In this document: one piece after another, positions 1,161 through 34,740 of the stretch
Layout: each line of letters begins with the position of its first letter
Position numbering within the stretch: the stretch's first letter is position 1
NCBI GenBank assembly: GCA_903920205.1
Contig: CAIXLI010000174.1
Coordinates: forward strand, 1 to 34,944
Direction of reading: 5' to 3'
Length of the DNA: 34,944 bases
From: an uncultured Pseudomonadota bacterium
GTDB taxonomy: Bacteria; Pseudomonadota; Alphaproteobacteria; UBA9219
Program-made: the position numbers and the translations under genes
Notes under the pieces: generated by a model
Database searches by the model: none
Told to the model about the DNA's origin: nothing
The model's input: only the letters and a program-made list of their open reading frames with translations

Positions 1161-1208
1161 CCCGAAGTAAGCTTGGGCGTGTTTCATTATTCGCAAAAGG
1201 ATTTTCTT

Positions 1209-1979
1209 ATGATGAAGGGTTTTTGGAGAGCCGTGGCGACGACTTTGGCGCTGATGACACACTCGCCAGCGTTGGCTAGTTCGCGCTATGCACCCATACA
1301 GCAGAAGGCCACAGCGCAGGCTCCTGCGAAGGCCTTGCTGCCCGGGCTCAAGATAGAAAAGGTTACCGTATCAGCTCAGGCGATCCTGGTTGAAGGCAGC
1401 GATGCCAACGCCATCAAGTATACGATGTTGCGCACAATTGAGGCCTCCCCCAAAGGACAGCTTTCGTTTGGCAAGTGCTATCAGATTTTGATCAAGAGAG
1501 AAGACGACAACAATGCCGCGCAGATTTCGGTTCTGGACAAATCATGCATCGTGATGGCTATCACCGGTATCGGTGACGGCATTTCGCCGTCCAACGCCAA
1601 AGACCCCGACTTCGACATTATGGCACAAGTTTACACGCCGAAAGGAAAAATGCCCGTACAAGCGGGAAAATTCGACACAAAGACCCGCACTTTTCATGAG
1701 CTCATCACCGTTCCTGTTCCGGATATAATGTCGCCATCACAGATTGAGGTTGTATGCTCGGCATTGAAAATGTTGAGCAGTGAGGCCTTCTACTTCAAAC
1801 GTTCATCGGGAGATTTTCCCATCCAAGATAAGATCCTATCGCTTCAGACGCACGGGAAACACGCGGAGTCGTCGCTCAAGGCTGACATCGCCTCTCGCCT
1901 CTCACAACTGGGGGGAGCGCACCGTGCCTCCGCAGCGAATCATAATAACGCCGAAACAACCATCTCGCTTCAGCTGTGA
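1209..1979 (+). CDS. secreted hypothetical protein, tandem paralog 1
   Basis: Signal peptide MMKGFWRAVATTLALMTHSPALAS; shares FGKCYQILIK...DKSCIVMAI and GKFDTKTRTFHEL with downstream paralogs. Start chosen at 1209 rather than the ORF-track start 1173. Confidence 0.7.
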   Translation: MMKGFWRAVATTLALMTHSPALASSRYAPIQQKATAQAPAKALLPGLKIEKVTVSAQAILVEGSDANAIKYTMLRTIEASPKGQLSFGKCYQILIKREDDNNAAQISVLDKSCIVMAITGIGDGISPSNAKDPDFDIMAQVYTPKGKMPVQAGKFDTKTRTFHELITVPVPDIMSPSQIEVVCSALKMLSSEAFYFKRSSGDFPIQDKILSLQTHGKHAESSLKADIASRLSQLGGAHRASAANHNNAETTISLQL

Positions 1980-2038
1980 ACGGCACGGAGCGCGATAGAA
2001 TCTTTCAGCCCGCCTTATGAATTGCACGAAGAGTTACG

Positions 2039-2791
2039 ATGAAAATGCGTTGGAAAACAATTGCCATTGCCCTAGCAGCCGTTGTAGGGACAACAACGGC
2101 GGTCCTAAGATTTTCCCCCCCCTCTTTCGCGCCAAAAGCTCAGCGCGCCAAGCCGCAAGTGATGTTCCCTGAGCTCATACTTACTCCGACTGTTGTGACC
2201 CCGCAGAATGTCTTGTTTCAGGGGATTGATGAAAACGGCACCAAATTTTTTATGTGGTCGGAAATAAATGTGGCCACGAACGACCAGTTTACGCTAGGCA
2301 GCTGCTATTCGATTATCATCAATAATAATGGCGAGCTTTTACAAATTGAAGCGATAGACTCTACCTACATCGCTATTGAGCGGATCCCCCCTGTCGACGG
2401 CGACAGCAACAAACAAAACCAAAAATCACCAATACTCAATAATATGTTGGTGATAGCCCGCACTCCCTCCGGCGAAACGCCGTCCCAAGTGGGGAAATAC
2501 AATATAATAACTGGCGAATTTACGGATCTTTCCCCTCTTTGCAATGAATGGCTTTCTGATGGAGAGGGCCTGGGGGTCTGCGCAGATCTTAGAAAGGCGG
2601 CCCTTAACGGGCTCAATAGTCTTAGCCCTGAGGAAGCAGCCGAGGTCAAAAAAGCGCTTGCTCTCCGTAACGAGGCGGAAGAGGGAGCGCTGCGCCATCA
2701 GGTTCTATCCTCCTTCCGTAGCCTGAAGTTGAGCGTTAAACCTCAAGGGACGAACGCAAAATTCTCTGGCATGAACAAGCCGACTTTATAA
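2039..2791 (+). CDS. secreted hypothetical protein, tandem paralog 2
   Basis: Hydrophobic N-terminus MKMRWKTIAIALAAVVGTTTAVL; LGSCYSIIINNNGELLQIEAIDSTYIAI and GKYNIITGEFTDL align with paralog 1. Confidence 0.7.
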   Translation: MKMRWKTIAIALAAVVGTTTAVLRFSPPSFAPKAQRAKPQVMFPELILTPTVVTPQNVLFQGIDENGTKFFMWSEINVATNDQFTLGSCYSIIINNNGELLQIEAIDSTYIAIERIPPVDGDSNKQNQKSPILNNMLVIARTPSGETPSQVGKYNIITGEFTDLSPLCNEWLSDGEGLGVCADLRKAALNGLNSLSPEEAAEVKKALALRNEAEEGALRHQVLSSFRSLKLSVKPQGTNAKFSGMNKPTL

Positions 2792-2853
2792 AAGGACAGC
2801 GTGGGCGCGGTTGAATTTTTTTATGTTTTTTTTGACAGGAAGCGGAATTGACG

Positions 2854-3570
2854 ATGAAGGAATTTTGGAGCGCCCTTCCGCTGGTTGCAATTCTTGCAAC
2901 TCCGGTTCCAGCGTTTGCGAACCGCTCCGGCAATGGGCCACTAAGAGTCACAGAAAATCATGCGTTTGCTGTCACGAGCACTCTCATAACGCCAAACTGG
3001 CTTAAATTCTCCGGAGATGAAAAGGAAAGCATTCGAGAGGAGGTGCGGTGCGGCATTGTCAATGTTTATGGCTCCCGCGATGTTGGGCTTAATGATTACT
3101 TTTACTATCGGCAAACCATCACCGAGCCCTCTTACGAGGAGCCAAGCAGGAAAAAGGAAAAAACTTCCTTCAGAGTTATTGGCTATAAGAATTACGTTGC
3201 CGCTATAGTGGTCAAGGATCATGTCGGGACAAAAGATATCGTCGTGACAGAAGGGTTCAAATTGGACGATCCTTCAGGTGAACTTGTCACCCTAAAAGGG
3301 GAATATGATCGCAGAACAGACACCCTTGAGAATTTGAAAGTCGCCCCCGAAGAAAAGTTCGCGAAACGTACAAAGATTCTCGAAATTTATACCCGCACGA
3401 GAAAGCAGGTCTTCGATCTGGCGAAGTCCCCCAAGGGGCGTCAACTATTCAAAACGACCAATACCCAAGAATATCGGGAAGAGCGGGAAAGAACGGCGTG
3501 TCTTTTTTATGATAAGGTTCTCCTTGAGCTCAAGAAGACTCTGGGTTGTCGCTCTAACCTCAGCCTATAA
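2854..3570 (+). CDS. secreted hypothetical protein, tandem paralog 3
   Basis: MKEFWSALPLVAILATPVPAFAN signal peptide nearly identical to paralog 4; GEYDRRTDTLENLKV motif. Confidence 0.75.
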   Translation: MKEFWSALPLVAILATPVPAFANRSGNGPLRVTENHAFAVTSTLITPNWLKFSGDEKESIREEVRCGIVNVYGSRDVGLNDYFYYRQTITEPSYEEPSRKKEKTSFRVIGYKNYVAAIVVKDHVGTKDIVVTEGFKLDDPSGELVTLKGEYDRRTDTLENLKVAPEEKFAKRTKILEIYTRTRKQVFDLAKSPKGRQLFKTTNTQEYREERERTACLFYDKVLLELKKTLGCRSNLSL

Positions 3571-3611
3571 ACGACGCGACAGCGTCCGTTAACCACAAAA
3601 ACAAGTCGTCT

Positions 3612-3658
3612 GAAAGTAATGACGGTGTTGTTTGGATGGGAAGAAAACGGTATAATCC
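3612..3658 (+). promoter_or_regulatory. promoter with upstream GAAAGTAAT element
   Basis: GAAAGTAAT (3612-3620), TTGTTT (3628-3633), 17 nt, TATAATCC (3651-3658). Confidence 0.6.
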
Positions 3659-3728
3659 GAGGGGAAGGCGTGGGGCGTGATTGAATTTTTTTAGCCCATC
3701 TTTTTTTTACAATAAAGGAAAATTGACG

Positions 3729-4451
3729 ATGAAGAAATTCTGGGGTGCTCTTCCGCTTATTGCAATTCTTGCAACGTCGTCGCCCGCTTTGGCTAACTTT
3801 TCCAACAAGGCACGGCAGGGGGGCACAGAAAAGCGTGGACTTTCTGTCAATGCTCCCGTTATCAAGGAAAATTGGATTGGGTTTCCTGGGATTTATGACG
3901 AAGGAGTCACCGGAGAACAGCGTATCGGAATTGTCGTGGATCCCGATAGCCACACCGTTGTTTTTAACGATTACGTTGACTACGAAGTGACAACCAACCT
4001 TCGCACGATCGAGGGTCAGCGCAAAAGGGGGCAGCGAACAACCCTGAAAATCGTTGGCTTTGAAGGCAATGTTGTCGCCATGCTTATTACAGACAAAATT
4101 GAAAATGATACATACAGAGTCGTGACAGAAGCAGGCGAACTGGATGGCACCCGAAACGGTGAGGAGACTATCAGAGAATGGGAATATAATTCGAAGACCG
4201 ATACTCTCAAAAATCCGAAGGCCTCAGACAAAAAGATCGACGACTTCTCGAAGATTGTAGCCGTATACAAGAACGTTAAAGCTCTATGCACCCAAGCGGC
4301 AACGGCACCCGGCCTTGAGGGAGAGCCCTCCCTCATAGAACAAGCCAATAAAATGACGCGCAGAGACAAGGGGAATGGGTATTTCAATCATCTGCGCAGT
4401 GAAATCAAAAAAACATTGGGAAAGCCGAAAGCAAACGGCATGACGCCATAA
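3729..4451 (+). CDS. secreted hypothetical protein, tandem paralog 4
   Basis: MKKFWGALPLIAILATSSPALAN signal peptide; WEYNSKTDTLKNPKA motif; own promoter and terminator. Confidence 0.75.
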   Translation: MKKFWGALPLIAILATSSPALANFSNKARQGGTEKRGLSVNAPVIKENWIGFPGIYDEGVTGEQRIGIVVDPDSHTVVFNDYVDYEVTTNLRTIEGQRKRGQRTTLKIVGFEGNVVAMLITDKIENDTYRVVTEAGELDGTRNGEETIREWEYNSKTDTLKNPKASDKKIDDFSKIVAVYKNVKALCTQAATAPGLEGEPSLIEQANKMTRRDKGNGYFNHLRSEIKKTLGKPKANGMTP

Positions 4452-4501: not shown

Positions 4502-5860
4502 TTAGCGGGTTTTCTTTTTATATTCGTAGGGGTTTTCGCTTTTCTTCAACTGCCATCTGATCGGCACGCCTTCTAGTTTGAAGGTTTCGCGCAGGCCGTG
4601 GGTTAGGAAGCGTTGGTAGCTTTCCGGCAGATCGACGGGTTTGTTGACCCACAACGAGAAAGTTGGGGGGCGACTTTTCACTTGCGTCATATAGCGCAAT
4701 TTCAGGCGGCGGTTGGCGGTGATGGGCGGCGGGTGATTGGCTTCCATGTCTTCCAACCAGCGATTCAGTTTGCCGGTGGAAACGCGGGTGTTCCAGTTTT
4801 CGTACATCCGCATCGTTTCGCGCATCAGGTCTTTCAGGCCTGTTCCCTCTAACGCGCAGATTTGCACCAAGGGAAGGCCGGAGACTTGCGCCAGCGAGGC
4901 TTCCGCTTTTTCGCGGATTTGCTTGGCGACAAGCTTTTTGTCTTTGACCAAATCCCATTTGTTCAGCGCGACGACCAAGGCGCGGCCTTCTTCGATGACG
5001 TGGTGCGCGATGACGAGTTCTTGTTTGTCGAAGGGCTGCGTTGCGTCAAGCACGAGGATCACGACATGCGCCAAGCGTATGGCGCGCAAGGATTCTTGGA
5101 CGCTGATGCGTTCCAGCGTTTCGGTCACGCGGACGCGGCGGCGCATACCGGCGGTATCGACCAGACGCACGGGTCTTCCGCGATATTCCCATGCGATGGG
5201 GATGGCGTCGCGGGTCAGGCCTGGTTCAGGCCCTGTCAACATGCGGTCTTCGCCGATTAATTGGTTGATGAGCGTCGATTTTCCCGCATTCGGGCGTCCG
5301 ACAACGGCGAGGATAAGGCGTTTTTCTTCTTCGTCTTCGGCTTCTTCTTTGGGCGCGTCTTCCTCGGGGACGTATTTGGACAGGATTTCGTATAAATCCA
5401 TCAGCCCGTCGCCATGCGAGGCGGAGATGGGCAAAGGATCGCCAAAGCCTAGAGACACCGTTTCTTCCATCGAGGCGGGAAGGACGCTTCCTTCACATTT
5501 ATTGGCAATCAATACTATCGGCAGACCTGTTTTGCGTAATTCTCGAGCAATCACAGTGTCTTCCGATGTCACGCCTGCGCGGGCATCAACGATCATCAGG
5601 ATGACTTGGGTTTGTTCCAACGCTTTCTTGGTTTGCTGGGCGGTACGCGCCGACAGGCTTCCTTTGGCGCGGACGTCTTCCAGCCCCGCCGTGTCGATCA
5701 CGCGGAATTTCAGGTCAAACAGATGCCCGTCGCCTTCGCGCCAGTCGCGGGTCACCCCGGGTTGGTCGTTGACGATAGCCATTTGTTTGCCGACCAAACG
5801 GTTAAACAAGGTAGACTTTCCCACATTGGGGCGTCCGGCGATGGCGATAGTAAAAGTCAT
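4502..5860 (-). CDS. der: ribosome biogenesis GTPase Der (EngA)
   Basis: Two GTPase domains: GRPNVGKST...DTAGLED and GRPNAGKST...DTAGMRRR; KH-like C-terminus. Start at MTFTIAIAGRPNVGKS. Confidence 0.95.
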   Translation of the reverse strand: MTFTIAIAGRPNVGKSTLFNRLVGKQMAIVNDQPGVTRDWREGDGHLFDLKFRVIDTAGLEDVRAKGSLSARTAQQTKKALEQTQVILMIVDARAGVTSEDTVIARELRKTGLPIVLIANKCEGSVLPASMEETVSLGFGDPLPISASHGDGLMDLYEILSKYVPEEDAPKEEAEDEEEKRLILAVVGRPNAGKSTLINQLIGEDRMLTGPEPGLTRDAIPIAWEYRGRPVRLVDTAGMRRRVRVTETLERISVQESLRAIRLAHVVILVLDATQPFDKQELVIAHHVIEEGRALVVALNKWDLVKDKKLVAKQIREKAEASLAQVSGLPLVQICALEGTGLKDLMRETMRMYENWNTRVSTGKLNRWLEDMEANHPPPITANRRLKLRYMTQVKSRPPTFSLWVNKPVDLPESYQRFLTHGLRETFKLEGVPIRWQLKKSENPYEYKKKTR

Positions 5861-5967
5861 AAAATCAATTTCCAATCATCGTGCAGCAGAGCAAAGGTCT
5901 TCCCCTCCCCCTTTTATGAGGAAGGCATGGGAACGCCGCCGCACTATGATCGTGAATGGGGTCTAGG

Positions 5968-7293
5968 TCAACGTAGCGCTATAAGCGTGCCGTCGTCCCT
6001 TACGACATAAAACGTGCGGTCAGCGACAACAGGCGACAAATAAAGGGGGTCGCCGAGGTCGATGCTGTCGAGAGAAGCACCGTCTTGGGGCGAAAAACTC
6101 GCCAGATGGCCCTGCGCGTTAACCATCCAGAGCCGTTCCCCCGCCAAGAGGGGCCCCGCCCAGACAAGACGGTCGGAATCCTTGTCGCTGGGGTCGGTGA
6201 GTTTCGGCAAGGACTTGACCCACAGAATACGTCCACTGTCACGAGTCAGGGCGATCAGCTGGCTATCGCCGCCATAGACGAAAACGGCGTCGCCGGCGAC
6301 AACAGGCGTGTCGATGCCGCCGATGTCGGATTCCCATACGCGGTCGCCGCTTCGTTGGTCGATGGCGGCTATGCGCCCGCTGTGGCTGATCGCGTAAATG
6401 CGCCCGTGATCGATAACGGGCAGGCCGCGAATATCGGCGATGGCAGGCAACGCGCCCACTTGCGCGGGTGCCGCCAGCGAATAGTTCCACGATATGCGTC
6501 CGTTTTGGGCGCGAAGGCCGAATATCTCGCCGGAATTATAGGCGACGACGACATTGTCGCCATCCACCGCCGGACTGGACGCGCCCATCAGGGTCGCGCT
6601 TTCGGCGATGCCCGATTGATGCCACAAGATATCGCCATTCGCAGCGGCAAGCGCGTTCAGATCGTTGTCGATGCTGACGACGTAGATGCGGTTATCTCCT
6701 ACCGTCGGGGCAGCGCGTAGCGGTTTCAGCAAGGCTTTGCGCCATTTGACCGCGCCCGTTTTGGCTTCGAGCGCGAAGACGTTGCCGAAGCCCGTCGTCG
6801 CGTAGAGCGTATCGCCGTCGACCGCCAATCCGCCGCCGATTGCTTTATCGTCGCTTTCTTCCGGCGTGGTGTCGCGTTCCCATTTTCTTTCGCCAGTCTT
6901 GGTATCGAAGGCGCGGATCAGCCCTTGCGAGTCCATCGTGTAAATCACGCCGCGATCAATGACGGGATGCGCCAAAAGCTTGAAATCTGAACTCGACCCC
7001 GCGCCGATGCTGGCTTTCCATACGATCTTCGGGTTTGTTGGCGCTTCCGCATAGGGCGGCGCGTGTTCGCTGTCATAGCCCGTTTGGGGCCAGGAGAGGT
7101 TGACGATTTTGTGCGGCAAAGACGGCTTGTTCTCGGTTAGGCCTTTGTCTTGCTCCAGCGCTTTGGTTTGTTCGATCACGGCAATCCTGTCGCCTTTGAT
7201 CGTCGCGCCTATCTTTTTCGCGGAATCGCCGCAAGCGGCAAGCGAGGCTGCCGCAAGGAGAAAGACAACGGGGGCGAGAGCTGTTCCCTTCAT
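5968..7293 (-). CDS. bamB: outer membrane assembly lipoprotein BamB (PQQ-like beta-propeller)
   Basis: Lipoprotein signal MKGTALAPVVFLLAAASLAAC; repeated beta-propeller motifs (YTMDSQGLIRAFDTKTGERKW, YATTGFGNVFALEAKTGAVKW); adjacent to der and a YfgM-like gene. Confidence 0.88.
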   Translation of the reverse strand: MKGTALAPVVFLLAAASLAACGDSAKKIGATIKGDRIAVIEQTKALEQDKGLTENKPSLPHKIVNLSWPQTGYDSEHAPPYAEAPTNPKIVWKASIGAGSSSDFKLLAHPVIDRGVIYTMDSQGLIRAFDTKTGERKWERDTTPEESDDKAIGGGLAVDGDTLYATTGFGNVFALEAKTGAVKWRKALLKPLRAAPTVGDNRIYVVSIDNDLNALAAANGDILWHQSGIAESATLMGASSPAVDGDNVVVAYNSGEIFGLRAQNGRISWNYSLAAPAQVGALPAIADIRGLPVIDHGRIYAISHSGRIAAIDQRSGDRVWESDIGGIDTPVVAGDAVFVYGGDSQLIALTRDSGRILWVKSLPKLTDPSDKDSDRLVWAGPLLAGERLWMVNAQGHLASFSPQDGASLDSIDLGDPLYLSPVVADRTFYVVRDDGTLIALR

Positions 7294-14551: not shown

Positions 14552-15484
14552 ATGCCCTTCGATCTTCTGCCCCATTTCTTCTTTGCGCTGAACGACGGCG
14601 GACGCCTGCGTTATGCGCAGTTTGCCCCTTCTTCGAACCCCTGCGGCACTGTTCTTATCGTTCCCGGACGGCGTGAATTTATCGAAAAGAAATACGCGGA
14701 ATGCGTTCCGCCCTTGCTGGACAGGGGCTTTCGCGTTGTCGTCGTCGAGATGAGGGGGCAAGGGCTTTCTTCGCGTTTTTTGAAGGACGACGAGCGCCAG
14801 CGCGATCATAGCGACGATTTTGCGGTTTTTCTGGACGATCTGCGCGCTTTCTATGCTGGCGTCGTGCTGCCCGGATTAACGGAGCCTTTGATTGTCCACG
14901 GGCATTCGCTGGGCGGGCATCTTGTTTTGCGCTGGATTGCTGAAGATCACCCCAAGGTTGCGGGGGTCTTCTTGACCGCACCGATGGTCGCTTTGTCGGG
15001 CATGGCGGCGCAGACGGCGGCCTATGGCATCAGTTGGGCCAGCGCGCGCCTGTTCAACCACGAAACCCATTACGCCCCTACCCAGCATGATTTCGGGGAC
15101 GACGATCTGGTGTTTGCCAATAACCCTCTGACGCATGACGAAGAGCGGTTCAAGATCATCGAAAACTATTTTACGGCGCAGCCCGAACTGACTATGGGCG
15201 GCGTAACTTGGGGATGGATGCTGGCGGCCTTGCGTTCGATGAACGAGGCCAATACATGGCCTTATTTGGCGCGTATTGATATTCCGGTTCTGGCCTTGGT
15301 CGGCAACCACGATCCCGTGACTCCGCCATCCGAAATCTCGCCTTATCTGAACCATATCCCCCGCGTACGCACGCATGTCATTGAAGACGCGCGCCACGAT
15401 TTAATGAACGAGACAGAGGCCGTGCGCACAGAGGCATGGGGGCATATCGACGAGTTTTTGAGGTTGGTCATGGCGGGTGGGTAA
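14552..15484 (+). CDS. alpha/beta hydrolase (lysophospholipase / monoacylglycerol lipase-like)
   Basis: VHGHSLGGHLVLRW nucleophile elbow, LVGNHDPVTPP, DARHDLMNE. Confidence 0.85.
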   Translation: MPFDLLPHFFFALNDGGRLRYAQFAPSSNPCGTVLIVPGRREFIEKKYAECVPPLLDRGFRVVVVEMRGQGLSSRFLKDDERQRDHSDDFAVFLDDLRAFYAGVVLPGLTEPLIVHGHSLGGHLVLRWIAEDHPKVAGVFLTAPMVALSGMAAQTAAYGISWASARLFNHETHYAPTQHDFGDDDLVFANNPLTHDEERFKIIENYFTAQPELTMGGVTWGWMLAALRSMNEANTWPYLARIDIPVLALVGNHDPVTPPSEISPYLNHIPRVRTHVIEDARHDLMNETEAVRTEAWGHIDEFLRLVMAGG

Positions 15485-15510
15485 TCACGCCCTGCCTTTC
15501 TTTATAGATT

Positions 15511-15705
15511 GTCATTCCGTGGCGCGGCAACGCGAAGCGTTGGTGCGAACACGGAACCCAGAGGGCTTTTCAGCAAACAGGGTGTTGCGTTTTTGAACGC
15601 AAAGGTTTCGTTTATCTGTCTTTTACAACACATTTCAGGCACTGACATAGCTTGAGGGTAAGCACGCTGGGTTCCGTGTTCGTGCTTCGCACGCCACGGA
15701 ATGAC
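15511..15705. repeat. composite inverted repeat of family A elements (MITE-like)
   Basis: GTCATTCCGTGGCG...CGAACACGGAACCCA (15511-15560) and its inverse TGGGTTCCGTGTTCG...CGCCACGGAATGAC (15667-15705). Confidence 0.75.
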
Positions 15706-15811
15706 AGGAGTGAGAAATTAACGGTGGGCAAGCTCTCTGCGTCCGCCCCTTGCGGAAGGGGGCTTTTGCGGGGTAAGTTGCGGCGTCTTTGAACTTTACC
15801 CCAGCTTTATC

Positions 15812-23991: not shown

Positions 23992-24097
23992 GTCATTCCG
24001 GAAAATGCGCAGTTGGTTCTCTTGCGGCAAAAAACAAATGGGATTCCGGATAAAATTGCATTTTGTGAAGAACAAAAAGCAATTTTTCCGGAATGAC
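23992..24097. repeat. dispersed palindromic element, family B (partial)
   Basis: GTCATTCCGGAAAATGCG...TGGGATTCCGGATAAAATTGCATTTTGTGAAGAACAAAAAGCAATTTTTCCGGAATGAC; related to 29039-29191. Confidence 0.75.
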
Positions 24098-24142
24098 GAA
24101 GGGTTTTATACGGCGCAATGCTTTTGTGCCTCACATTAACTC

Positions 24143-28994: not shown

Positions 28995-29038
28995 GCGGAT
29001 ACCCTTATGACTTTTCTCTTACCCCCCAAAAAATCTTT

Positions 29039-29191
29039 GTCATTCCGCATAAATGCGCTTTTTGTTCTTCACAAAATGCGCGTTTATGCGGAATCCCATT
29101 GGGTTTTCTTGGGGCGAGAAAAACAAATGGGATTCCGGATAAATTCGCATTTTTTCAAGAAAGAGCAAAAAAGCGAATTTTCCGGAATGAC
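29039..29191. repeat. dispersed palindromic element, family B (full, bipartite)
   Basis: GTCATTCCGCATAAATGCGC...GCGCGTTTATGCGGAATCCCA, linker, TGGGATTCCGGATAAATTCGC...GCGAATTTTCCGGAATGAC. Confidence 0.8.
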
Positions 29192-29237
29192 GGGAGATTT
29201 TTAAGAGGCGTAGAGGTTCTCCTCTAAAATTCTTTTG

Positions 29238-29954: not shown

Positions 29955-31958
29955 ATGATAAATGCTTCCGCCATACCCCAGAAAACACTGCGCGTTCTTG
30001 TACCCGCGCCGTTGGGGGATGCGTATGATTATCTGCCGCCGGAAGGGGAAATCCTGCAAAAGGGCGCATTTGTCGAGGTTCCCTTTGGGGGACGCAAGAT
30101 GATCGGCGTGGTTTGGGGGGCCGGCACGGGCGAGGTGCCGGAGGATAAGCTAAAGGCCATTATACGCCCCCTACCCCTTCCTTTGGTGCCGGAAGTCAGT
30201 CGCGCCTTCGTTGATTGGGTTGCGGGATATACGCTGACTCCGGCGGGTGCCGTTTTGAAAATGATGTTTGGCAGCGCAAAATTGATCGAGCCGAAGAAGA
30301 ACGATGCTTTTGTTTGCCCCGCCTTTGATCCCGACTTTCATCAGCCTTTGTTAAGCGACGACCAGAAGAAAGCCGCCGAGGTTCTTAAAGGGAAAGTCGG
30401 GGCGCAGTCGGATACTCTTCATACCACCCTCCTCGACGGCGTTACGGGTTCCGGCAAGACGGAAGTTTTTTGCGAGGCTATCGCCGAATGTTTGAGGCAG
30501 GGGAAACAGGCTCTTGTTCTATTGCCTGAAATCGCCATGACCGCCGCGCTGATCGACAGGTTTGCGGCGCGGTTCGGTGCTAGGCCTATTGAATGGCATT
30601 CGGGGTTGGGCGAACGTCAGCGGCGTTTGCATTGGCAGGCTATTGCACGGGGCGAGGCGAAATTTATCCTTGGAGCGCGGTCAGCTTTATTCCTGCCTTA
30701 TCCCGATCTTGGCTTGATTGTTGTCGATGAAGAGCATGAAGCGGCTTATAAACAAGAAGAAGGTGCGATTTATCATGGGCGCGATATGGCGGTAGCGCGG
30801 GCGCATTTGGGGAAGATTCCCGTGGTGTTGTCCAGCGCTACGCCGTCGTTAGAGTCTTTATTCAACACGCAGCAAGGTAAATACGATCATGTCGTTCTGC
30901 GCGAGCGTTTCGGCTACGCGCAGATGCCACACATCGAGGTTGTCGATTTGCGCCGCTATAAACTATCCGCGCAGGAATTTATTAGCCCACCGTTGTTTGA
31001 CGGGTTACAAGAAACGCTCGCCGCAGGACGGCAGGCGATGTTATTTTTGAACCGGCGCGGTTATGCGCCGCTGACTTTATGCCGAAGCTGCGGTCATCGC
31101 TTGCAATGCCCGCAATGTACCGCTTGGCTGACCGAACACAAGACATCCAGCCGCCTGCATTGCCACCATTGCGGATACACCATGCGCTTGCCCAACACTT
31201 GCCCGTCTTGCGAAGCCGAAGGACGCTTTGCCGCCTGCGGTCCCGGGGTGGAGCGCATTGCGGAAGAAGTTAAAAAGCGTCTGCCCGAGGCGCGTTTTGC
31301 CGTCATGGCGAGCGATACGTTGGAAAGCCCCGAGGCGGCTCAGGCCTTGGTTGACCAAATGGCGCGGCGTGAACTCGATCTTTTGATCGGCACGCAGATT
31401 ATGGCGAAGGGATACCATTTCCCCCGCCTAACTTTTGTCGGCGTTGTGGACGGAGATCTTGGTTTGGCGGGGGGCGACCCTCGCGCCGCCGAACGCACCT
31501 TCCAGCTTTTGCAACAAATGGCGGGGCGTAGCGGGCGGGGCGAAGATGCGGGGCGCGTTCTGTTGCAAACGACAGCGCCGGAGCATCCCGTGATGAAGGC
31601 GATTATCAAGGGCGACCGCGATGCTTTTATGCAAGCTGAGCTCAACGAACGCGCTGCCTATCGCCTGCCACCCTATTGGCGTTTAGCGAGTCTGACAATT
31701 TCCGGCGAGGATGTGAATCAGGTTATCAAAGCGGCGCAACATTTGGCATCAACTGCGCCGCAGAACGAAAATTTGAGAATCCTCGGCCCCGCGCCTGCGC
31801 CCTATGCGCGGCTTCGGGGTCGTTATCGGCATCGCGTGATGGTTCAGGCGCCGCGCAGCGTCAACCTATCCGCCGTGCTGCGGCGTTGGTTGGCGACGGT
31901 CAAACTGCCGAGGAATTTGCGGCTGTTGATCGATGTCGATCCGTATAGTTTTCTTTAG
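29955..31958 (+). CDS. priA: primosomal protein N' (PriA helicase)
   Basis: DGVTGSGKTEVF, DEEHEAAYKQEE, Cys-rich zinc motifs CRSCGHRLQCPQC...CHHCGYTMRLPNTCPSC, GTQIMAKGYHFPRLTFVGVVDGD. Confidence 0.95.
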   Translation: MINASAIPQKTLRVLVPAPLGDAYDYLPPEGEILQKGAFVEVPFGGRKMIGVVWGAGTGEVPEDKLKAIIRPLPLPLVPEVSRAFVDWVAGYTLTPAGAVLKMMFGSAKLIEPKKNDAFVCPAFDPDFHQPLLSDDQKKAAEVLKGKVGAQSDTLHTTLLDGVTGSGKTEVFCEAIAECLRQGKQALVLLPEIAMTAALIDRFAARFGARPIEWHSGLGERQRRLHWQAIARGEAKFILGARSALFLPYPDLGLIVVDEEHEAAYKQEEGAIYHGRDMAVARAHLGKIPVVLSSATPSLESLFNTQQGKYDHVVLRERFGYAQMPHIEVVDLRRYKLSAQEFISPPLFDGLQETLAAGRQAMLFLNRRGYAPLTLCRSCGHRLQCPQCTAWLTEHKTSSRLHCHHCGYTMRLPNTCPSCEAEGRFAACGPGVERIAEEVKKRLPEARFAVMASDTLESPEAAQALVDQMARRELDLLIGTQIMAKGYHFPRLTFVGVVDGDLGLAGGDPRAAERTFQLLQQMAGRSGRGEDAGRVLLQTTAPEHPVMKAIIKGDRDAFMQAELNERAAYRLPPYWRLASLTISGEDVNQVIKAAQHLASTAPQNENLRILGPAPAPYARLRGRYRHRVMVQAPRSVNLSAVLRRWLATVKLPRNLRLLIDVDPYSFL

Positions 31959-32217
31959 GCTTATGCCTCCTGATATATCGTCACTCCTCGACAGCTGAAA
32001 AAGGCTAGGGAAGCTCTTTATTTTTTGTTTTTCAAAGAGTTCTATTGCTCAATATCCCCTTTATAAGAACAGGGCTCCCCTGTCTTCCTTCTTGGATGCC
32101 CTCGTTGACCCCGATCGGGAGCCGCAACGATCCCTTGGGCTAAACAGTCTAATTAAGGAATCGTTAAACTGAGTGCGCAATGATGTATGGATACGTCACT
32201 TTATTGTGGAACTTGCC

Positions 32218-34086
32218 ATGAACATTGGGACAATTCTGCCTGCTGGTTTCCTGGTCTGGGAGACAAGCCATAGACGGACAACTGTGGGGGTTGTTTGCGG
32301 GTTATTTTGGCTTTCCTGTGCCATACCCTCCCCAGCTTTCGCCGCTTCGCATCCTGGAAGCTGCGCGTCCACCAGTGGCGATGCAGCAGGTGCTTGTCAA
32401 TTTGAAGTCCAGTCATACACAGAGGCTCTTTCGCCAGCCCTCAGCATGGGCATACGGTTAGACGCAGGGATACGGGATGTTCTCTTCAACAACTTTTCCA
32501 CTGTCGGACCTAGATTCGTAAGCAACCTCAGCGGCAATGACTTTTTCGTGCCGCAGAAGACGGGGAAAGAATATTTGTCGTTTATCACATCGCCCCCGTC
32601 AGGCGTCACGATAGACTATGCCGTTGTGCCGAGGATTTATACAGCAACCCCTTCGCCCGCTTATGCTACATGCGGCACGCCGTCTCCAAGTTCGATTGAC
32701 GTTTCGGTGCCCACGGCTGCCAACTCGACTTCGCCGGTTATCGTTCATTCCTATTCCTTGGTGCTGAACCCACTCAATCCCTCAACCACGCAAACAACGG
32801 TCGGCACAACGACGCAGGGACAAAGCCCGGCGCATTTCAACTATACGCGGCAGGATTGTTCGACCGATGACGAAGGGAACAACGTCTGCACAACTGCCAA
32901 TTTCCTCGAAGACCAGCAATTGGTTTTTTCAGCAACGGGGGGTCTTCCTAGTTTTAGTTGGGGAGCACCTGTGGTGACGAGCTCTATTTCATCTGATTGT
33001 TCTAAACCCTACGCTCCCCCTATCAATGGGGTGTGCGGCGCGGCGAACGGGGACTATTCTTCGACCGCACCTTCAACCGGTTTGTGTAGTTCAGGAAACG
33101 CCAGCGCTGTAACGACAGGAAGTAGCGGGACGTGGACCTGGATGTGCTCAGGTGTCAACGGGGGAAGCAATCAATCTTGTATGGCGATGGTGCCCCCCCC
33201 ATGCAGTGCAAAGGCTGACAAAACGGCTTCGATCAGCAGCATCTGCCAACCTGTAGGGGTTTCCGTAAAGCCGCTAACATGCACGTCTGCTCACGCGCAA
33301 CCAGTCGATCTTAGCATTTTGTTGGATGCTAGCGGAAGCATGCAACCTGTCATCGCGGCTGCAGAGACCGCCTTTAAGGGACTGCTATCCAAGCTTTCGT
33401 CACATGGGTCAAACGTCAACTACAGTGTCGTTATGATTGGTGGGAGTGGGGGCTACACTCCGTCGGGTAGTGGCGGGGATGTCTGCCCCTATGGGTACCT
33501 TGCCCCCTTTGGTCACCCCAACGTCACTTCCATACTGGATAATTTGGGGCTTGTGGTCGCCGATACCAACACCCCCATCGCTGCGGCTATGAATTTTGCC
33601 GCCCGCGATTTAACCAACACGGGGCATCAGCGCGCCATGATCTTGATCAGCGATGGCGTGGATACATGTCTGGATGCCACTGGCAATCCTAATATCACGC
33701 CGACCATCCGGACGATGCAAAACAATGGCATCAAGATGTATGGCGTGCAAATTCTCAATCCCCCCACCAGCGATACGGGTAAGATAAATTTCGACACGCT
33801 TAACCTCTACAGTTCGGTTGATAATACGGGTGGCGAAATCAACGCCACGGCTTTATCCAACGCCTTGGATAGTATGATCCAAAACGCTACGCAAACATGC
33901 CAGCTTAGCGCGACGATCTATAATCCGACCGACGGCACGACAGTCGGCACTTTATCAGCGGGATCCTCCCTGACTCTTCTGCCCGGCATCTACAACGTCA
34001 CATTCTCACTTTGCGATCAAACAAGCAGCAAGACTCTTACAATTACAGCCGCCACGCAGCTTGATCCGGGGATGGTTTGCAAGTGA
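32218..34086 (+). CDS. secreted von Willebrand factor type A domain protein
   Basis: Signal peptide TTVGVVCGLFWLSCAIPSPAFA; MIDAS DASGS in VDLSILLDASGSMQPV...ADTNTPIAAAMNFA...RAMILISDGVDTC; Cys-containing CGAANGDYSSTAPSTGLCSSGN...TWTWMCSGVNGGSNQSC module. Confidence 0.85.
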   Translation: MNIGTILPAGFLVWETSHRRTTVGVVCGLFWLSCAIPSPAFAASHPGSCASTSGDAAGACQFEVQSYTEALSPALSMGIRLDAGIRDVLFNNFSTVGPRFVSNLSGNDFFVPQKTGKEYLSFITSPPSGVTIDYAVVPRIYTATPSPAYATCGTPSPSSIDVSVPTAANSTSPVIVHSYSLVLNPLNPSTTQTTVGTTTQGQSPAHFNYTRQDCSTDDEGNNVCTTANFLEDQQLVFSATGGLPSFSWGAPVVTSSISSDCSKPYAPPINGVCGAANGDYSSTAPSTGLCSSGNASAVTTGSSGTWTWMCSGVNGGSNQSCMAMVPPPCSAKADKTASISSICQPVGVSVKPLTCTSAHAQPVDLSILLDASGSMQPVIAAAETAFKGLLSKLSSHGSNVNYSVVMIGGSGGYTPSGSGGDVCPYGYLAPFGHPNVTSILDNLGLVVADTNTPIAAAMNFAARDLTNTGHQRAMILISDGVDTCLDATGNPNITPTIRTMQNNGIKMYGVQILNPPTSDTGKINFDTLNLYSSVDNTGGEINATALSNALDSMIQNATQTCQLSATIYNPTDGTTVGTLSAGSSLTLLPGIYNVTFSLCDQTSSKTLTITAATQLDPGMVCK

Positions 34087-34113
34087 AGAAGTCGGCGAGA
34101 TAAATACGGAACT

Positions 34114-34177
34114 TATGCGCGGATTCGGGGGCGTTATCGGCATCGCCGTGATGGTTCAAGCGCCGCGCAGCGTGAAC
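34114..34177 (+). pseudogene. duplicated fragment of priA 3' region
   Basis: TATGCGCGGATTCGGGGGCGTTATCGGCATCGCCGTGATGGTTCAAGCGCCGCGCAGCGTGAAC matches priA 31803-31865 with 4 mismatches and 1 inserted base. Confidence 0.9.
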
Positions 34178-34232
34178 ACGAAGCCCTTGAGCCATAAATC
34201 CATCGCCACTGTTCGCTGAAAAGCCATCTGTT

Positions 34233-34279
34233 TTCCGTGTTCGCGTCAAAGCAAGCGCGTTGCCGCGCTACGGAATGAC
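34233..34279. repeat. dispersed palindromic element, family A
   Basis: TTCCGTGTTCGCGTCAAAGCAAGCGCGTTGCCGCGCTACGGAATGAC; reverse complement matches 15511-15557. Confidence 0.75.
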
Positions 34280-34530
34280 AAATTTTTCAAAAAATAACGG
34301 ACGGTAATAGCCTTAACCCTCTTTCAGAATCGCACCGAATTACCCTTATCTGGCCATAAGTTACCCCATACAGGCAATCCAATTACTTTCATGACTTTTA
34401 TTTTAGAATAGTGAGCATGAAAGTTTTTTCACTTTCAGAGTTTGCGGGTAAGGTTGTTTTAGGAAATGATCTCTAGAAGACGTAATCGCTAGAAGATGAA
34501 GAAGAAAAATCGTTTAAAAGGAACAGCACC

Positions 34531-34740
34531 GTGTTAGTCGAACTTTCGCCAGCTACTTATCTCGCCCTTTGCGGCCTTGTCAGCGACGCGCTGCAACACC
34601 CCAGCGACGCGACTCCCCTTTTGATGCGCGCAGGGCAAGAATTGAGCGGCGTGACGGCGGGTGGCATGATCCCTTCGGAATTGGTTGAACAACCCGAATA
34701 TATCGAAAATCTTCGCCGCGCGGGTTTTGCCCGCCGCTGA
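34531..34740 (+). CDS. small hypothetical protein (69 aa)
   Basis: GTG start with AAAAGGAACAG upstream; followed 28 nt later by an intrinsic terminator. Confidence 0.6.
   Translation: MLVELSPATYLALCGLVSDALQHPSDATPLLMRAGQELSGVTAGGMIPSELVEQPEYIENLRRAGFARR

Follow-up and report, generated by a model that had tools for sequence, protein, structure and literature searches.

A partial direct copy of priA beside an apparently inserted secreted-VWA gene in an uncultured alphaproteobacterium of UBA9219

How a gene for a secreted protein came to lie between a housekeeping gene and a broken copy of that same gene is the question raised by this locus of an uncultured Pseudomonadota bacterium (Alphaproteobacteria, UBA9219). 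The window, by which we mean the whole stretch of DNA that was analysed, covers positions 1-34,944 of contig CAIXLI010000174.1 of GCA_903920205.1, a metagenome-derived assembly of 2.32 Mb that consists of 228 contigs and is 96% complete. It carries on its forward strand a complete priA (29955-31958) encoding a primosomal helicase of 667 aa, in which the Pfam families PriA_3primeBD, DEAD, Zn_ribbon_PriA, Helicase_C, and PriA_C were matched. Downstream of priA follow, on the same strand, a gene for a VWA protein, a 64-nt piece of priA, half of a dispersed repeat, and a conserved ORF of 69 aa.

Insertion between priA and the 69-aa ORF

In five relatives (L051, L052, L055, L056, and L071), a gap of 196-294 bp separates priA from the same 69-aa ORF that lies at 34531-34740 (forward strand) in the window; the corresponding gap here is about 2570 bp. 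The ORF matched no Pfam family and shows 70-83% identity at the priA loci of six relatives. Both the vWA gene and the priA fragment are absent from the spacer in the five relatives. The conserved region upstream of the ORF (34358-34530, forward strand), as aligned to the same five loci, resumes in the window at about 34358-34375 and gives the approximate right edge of the insertion. The left end lies somewhere in the spacer 31959-32172, which has a GC of 0.45 and gave no repeat, duplicate, or other copy in an own-genome DNA search. The five empty sites mark about 2.4 kb (roughly 31959-34357) as a lineage-specific gain, and an insertion behind priA in this lineage is supported by this comparison.

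The original prediction had pointed to empty sites in related genomes as support for an insertion, which is what the five loci provide; among the relatives examined, none carried the fragment without the vWA cargo. Its choice of a tRNA-Arg as the flanking marker has to be revised: the tRNA was not found beside the 69-aa ORF in the relatives' loci, and the relevant neighbour is the ORF. Apart from the tRNA, the Rfam search gave only an antisense match across that tRNA, which stayed below threshold, and the RNA fold of 34087-34320 was no better than shuffles (z 0.30).

Other inserts were found at the same place. L068 carries an unrelated 178-aa reverse ORF (5510-6046, minus strand) in the priA-ORF spacer. 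In genome G007, priA and the 69-aa ORF are on separate contigs (C56/C132; L144 and L145) whose breaks both fall in the spacer; a matching inverted repeat, TAGAGTCATTGCGCGAT, was read by eye near both breaks, and the insert in G007 looks like an insertion sequence. The different inserts in L068 and apparently in G007 suggest that the spacer tolerates insertions. The conserved block upstream of the 69-aa ORF (34370-34530, AATTACTTTCATGA ... TTAAGGTTGG.TTAGGAA) is kept in relatives and looks like a candidate conserved promoter or regulatory region.

The priA fragment and the half repeat beside it

Local alignment matched 34114-34177 (forward strand, direct orientation) to priA 31803-31865 (forward strand), a segment inside the PriA C-terminal domain, over 64 columns with 59 identities, four substitutions (priA/copy: C/A at 31812, T/G at 31820, G/A at 31847, and C/G at 31862), and one inserted C, in agreement with the original prediction. 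The fragment region matched the window with an E value of 7.7e-21 in BLASTN, and the priA/fragment pair was the best repeat pair in the self-comparison of the window (BLASTN, E 1.25e-18). The match is real and far beyond chance. Apart from the fragment, the 2.32-Mb assembly contains no second copy of this part of priA. It begins 27 bp past the stop codon of the vWA gene (34084-34086) and not immediately after it, as had been stated. It is an internal piece of priA that lacks the last 93 bp of the gene and with them the stop. Its initially PriA-like frame is shifted by the inserted C, and no frame across it is an open continuation of PriA, so that its description as frameshifted and non-coding holds, as does that of the vWA gene as lying between a complete priA 3' end and a partial direct copy, with a duplicate on either side.

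Of the 63 sites compared once the inserted C is left out, the fragment shares 59 with its own priA and 45 or fewer with the priA of any of 13 relatives, the nearest relative being 79% identical over the 459 bp of the priA 3' region. Because the fragment is far nearer to its own priA than to any of the 13, the duplication postdates the split from all the sampled relatives, and on this evidence the fragment is a copy made within this lineage. At 31812, the copy has A and its own priA and 11 of the 13 relatives have C, which indicates that this change arose in the copy. The other three differences (31820, 31847, and 31862) are at variable third codon positions, where the side of the change is not assignable.

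The end of the fragment at 34177 directly abuts a truncated dispersed repeat that starts at 34178, and this junction, at which the half repeat lacks its left half, is a new observation. From own-genome matches and a profile match, the repeat was recognised as the right half of a MITE/REPIN-like element of about 240 bp (34178-34294, forward strand), corresponding to model positions 150-266 of 312 (E 5.5e-27), with a tail at the right that may reach about 34315. The family has about 20 matches in the genome. In its full-length copies, such as L107, L108, and the one at 15480-15730 of the window (minus strand), a spacer of about 100 bp separates two palindromic units in inverted orientation (GTCATTCCGTGGC... 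and ...GCCACGGAATGAC), and these copies extend further left than the homology beginning at 34178. The priA copy thus stops exactly where the repeat homology starts and stands at the break in the repeat. A palindrome of "family A" at 34233-34279, which had been pointed out as close to the fragment, is present and is newly read as the right hairpin of this repeat. A dispersed family of paired inverted palindromes, in which truncated copies are common, resembles REPINs, in which REP doublets form hairpins (PMC3116915), and MITEs. In contrast to these, no Y1/RAYT transposase adjoins the family here, and none of the six Y1_Tnp loci in the genome has the family nearby, so that we only infer the mobility of the repeat. 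Several truncated single-hairpin copies among the family loci L106-L124 stand just after gene ends. The segment 34061-34125, which lies to the left of the fragment and reaches into it, was considered as the missing left half, which would place the priA piece inside a MITE, and was rejected: the comparison of GATAAATACGGAACTTATGCG with GATAAACGAAACCTTTGCG gave a shuffle p of about 0.12, with equally high scores in 86 of 455 background windows.

A dispersed repeat at the junction and an assembly of 228 contigs might lead one to suspect a chimeric join in the metagenome-derived contig. This is very unlikely, as there are five differences between the copy and priA, the sequence to the left of the copy is unique and that to its right is a distinct repeat copy, and the downstream side is syntenic with relatives.

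The cargo gene and its source

The vWA gene starts with the ATG at 32218 and ends at 34086 (forward strand); the listed ORF opens at the GTG at 32173 and has 637 aa, of which residues 379-533 form the VWA domain (Pfam PF00092, E 6.3e-7). A DxSxS motif in the domain and an apparent signal peptide were read by eye. The protein has an N-terminal module and a Cys-containing unit in common with three paralogs encoded on contigs C76 and C221 of the same genome, with 62-65% protein identity for the N-terminal module. At the DNA level, the gene resembles the paralogs (68-70%) within coding sequence only (32294-33194), and protein similarity stops in the alignment after the Cys-containing unit. As the similarity is coding-only and ends there, the cargo is, as judged from these alignments, a chimeric gene from the host's own family of secreted proteins. 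The N-terminal module is strong in this genome only among the 33 genomes of the order. No orthologue of the vWA gene was found in the relatives searched, and weak relatives of the VWA domain (26-32%) occur in another family of the order. The sequences C76 1-2344 (L090) and C221 1-3237 (L089) of the own genome (G000) appear to overlap inside one gene, where both contain QDCSTDNEGHNNCTTVTFIEDQKLVFSAAGTIPS; taken together, they carry an array of three genes for secreted Cys-rich vWA paralogs, with a DNA methyltransferase-like gene on one side and an RNase HII-like gene on the other. Elsewhere in the window, positions 1173-4451 contain several successive ORFs for secreted proteins; in two of them, the DNA is 78% identical (near 2799-2900 and 3668-3775), suggesting a tandem duplication.

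The direct-repeat layout would also be predicted if DNA from the priA 3' region, together with the vWA gene, had been imported on a circular or linear piece that recombined with priA by a single crossover; the result would be a hybrid but complete priA and, beside it, a partial one. Of the four differences between copy and priA, three are at third codon positions, as expected if the divergence partly arose while the sequence was coding, but this count is not significant. The GC (0.533, which is host-like) and GC3 of the vWA gene resemble those of the in-genome paralogs, and a search of plasmid and phage records with the vWA protein gave no match. We therefore consider such an import improbable. 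A cargo behind a housekeeping gene with direct repeats on both sides also recalls site-specific integration with attL/attR in priA, in the style of a genomic island. However, the ORF list and Pfam gave no integrase in the 2.4-kb insert, and the repeat is imperfect, lies within priA, and stops 93 bp ahead of the priA end, so that, unlike in integrase-mediated islands, no att repeat restores the 3' end of the gene; this explanation is extremely unlikely.

Formation of the duplication

Our preferred explanation, which we put forward tentatively and at slightly less than even probability, is that the 64-nt copy is the remnant of a target duplication made when the cargo was inserted, later deleted in part and decayed. 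About 2.4 kb with the chimeric secreted-VWA gene would have been inserted into the spacer between priA and the 69-aa ORF, where illegitimate or short-homology recombination would have joined it to the chromosome and directly duplicated the priA 3' region. This would be an insertion with long target duplication, with the left priA copy left complete. The right copy would have lost its last 93 bp by a deletion that ended in the middle of the MITE/REPIN-like repeat and also took the left half of the repeat, after which the right copy would have decayed. That a single event produced both duplication and insertion, with the deletion following afterwards, is our inference, and the fragment may plausibly be a target duplication that arose in this insertion. 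Of the duplication-associated insertion in the original prediction, the insertion is borne out by the five empty sites, but that it made the duplication is not established. Since every relative lacks both cargo and fragment, duplication and insertion cannot be ordered in time, and since the copy breaks off before the end of priA and is fused to half a repeat, at least one further rearrangement is needed. It also counts against a target duplication that none of the relatives, of which the nearest has 79% identity over the 459 bp of the priA 3' region, separates the steps in time and that the left spacer has no duplicate or repeat. A search for Ku in the assembly, which is 96% complete, gave nothing, and Ku-type end joining is thus not supported.

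Insertion with long target duplication is known from the restriction-modification genes of Helicobacter pylori (Nobusato et al. 2000, cited in PMC1643837 and PMC3031569). As in those cases, the gene here is absent from relatives, host sequence is duplicated directly on its two sides, and the insert contains neither a transposase nor an integrase; the direct duplicates on either side of the vWA gene match at 59 of 64 positions, and the five relatives have a single-copy empty site. The cargo here differs in being a secreted VWA gene instead of a restriction-modification gene, and the second copy in being short, truncated, decayed, and joined to half of a dispersed repeat.

A close rival, to which we give roughly one chance in three, accounts for the short internal copy almost as well as a target duplication does. 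A repair or replication fork stalled at the repeat hairpin would have switched to the nearby priA, copied 64 nt as a filler, and returned, so that the copied priA replaced the left half of the repeat and the vWA gene came separately. That the fragment ends exactly at the broken middle of the repeat and that only an internal 64-nt piece was copied both fit such a template switch, and the copied segment has a 7-bp inverted repeat (TGCGCGG/CCGCGCA) near its ends. On the other hand, the copied segment does not stand out in its folding (z -1.26), the similarity left of the fragment that might be a repeat remnant falls short of significance (shuffle p about 0.12), and an independent insertion of the vWA gene within a few tens of bp would be required.

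Overall, the locus looks like a lineage-specific rearrangement scar of a known kind, produced by ordinary recombination. It is mainly one further example of known insertion-with-duplication patterns, and it offers a clean comparative case with empty sites, a lineage-specific cargo, and a recognisable scar, in which a surface-protein gene was apparently gained behind a housekeeping gene without a recognisable transposase. One might also speculate that the MITE/REPIN-like elements of this lineage, by analogy with the gene-capturing transposons of plants, capture short pieces of host genes by template switching and help to move neighbouring genes, in which case the priA fragment would be a captured piece inside the repeat; we regard this as a long shot. 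A second repeat family is present in the window at 24010-24107 and 29029-29192, its copies being about 80% identical and occurring in both orientations.
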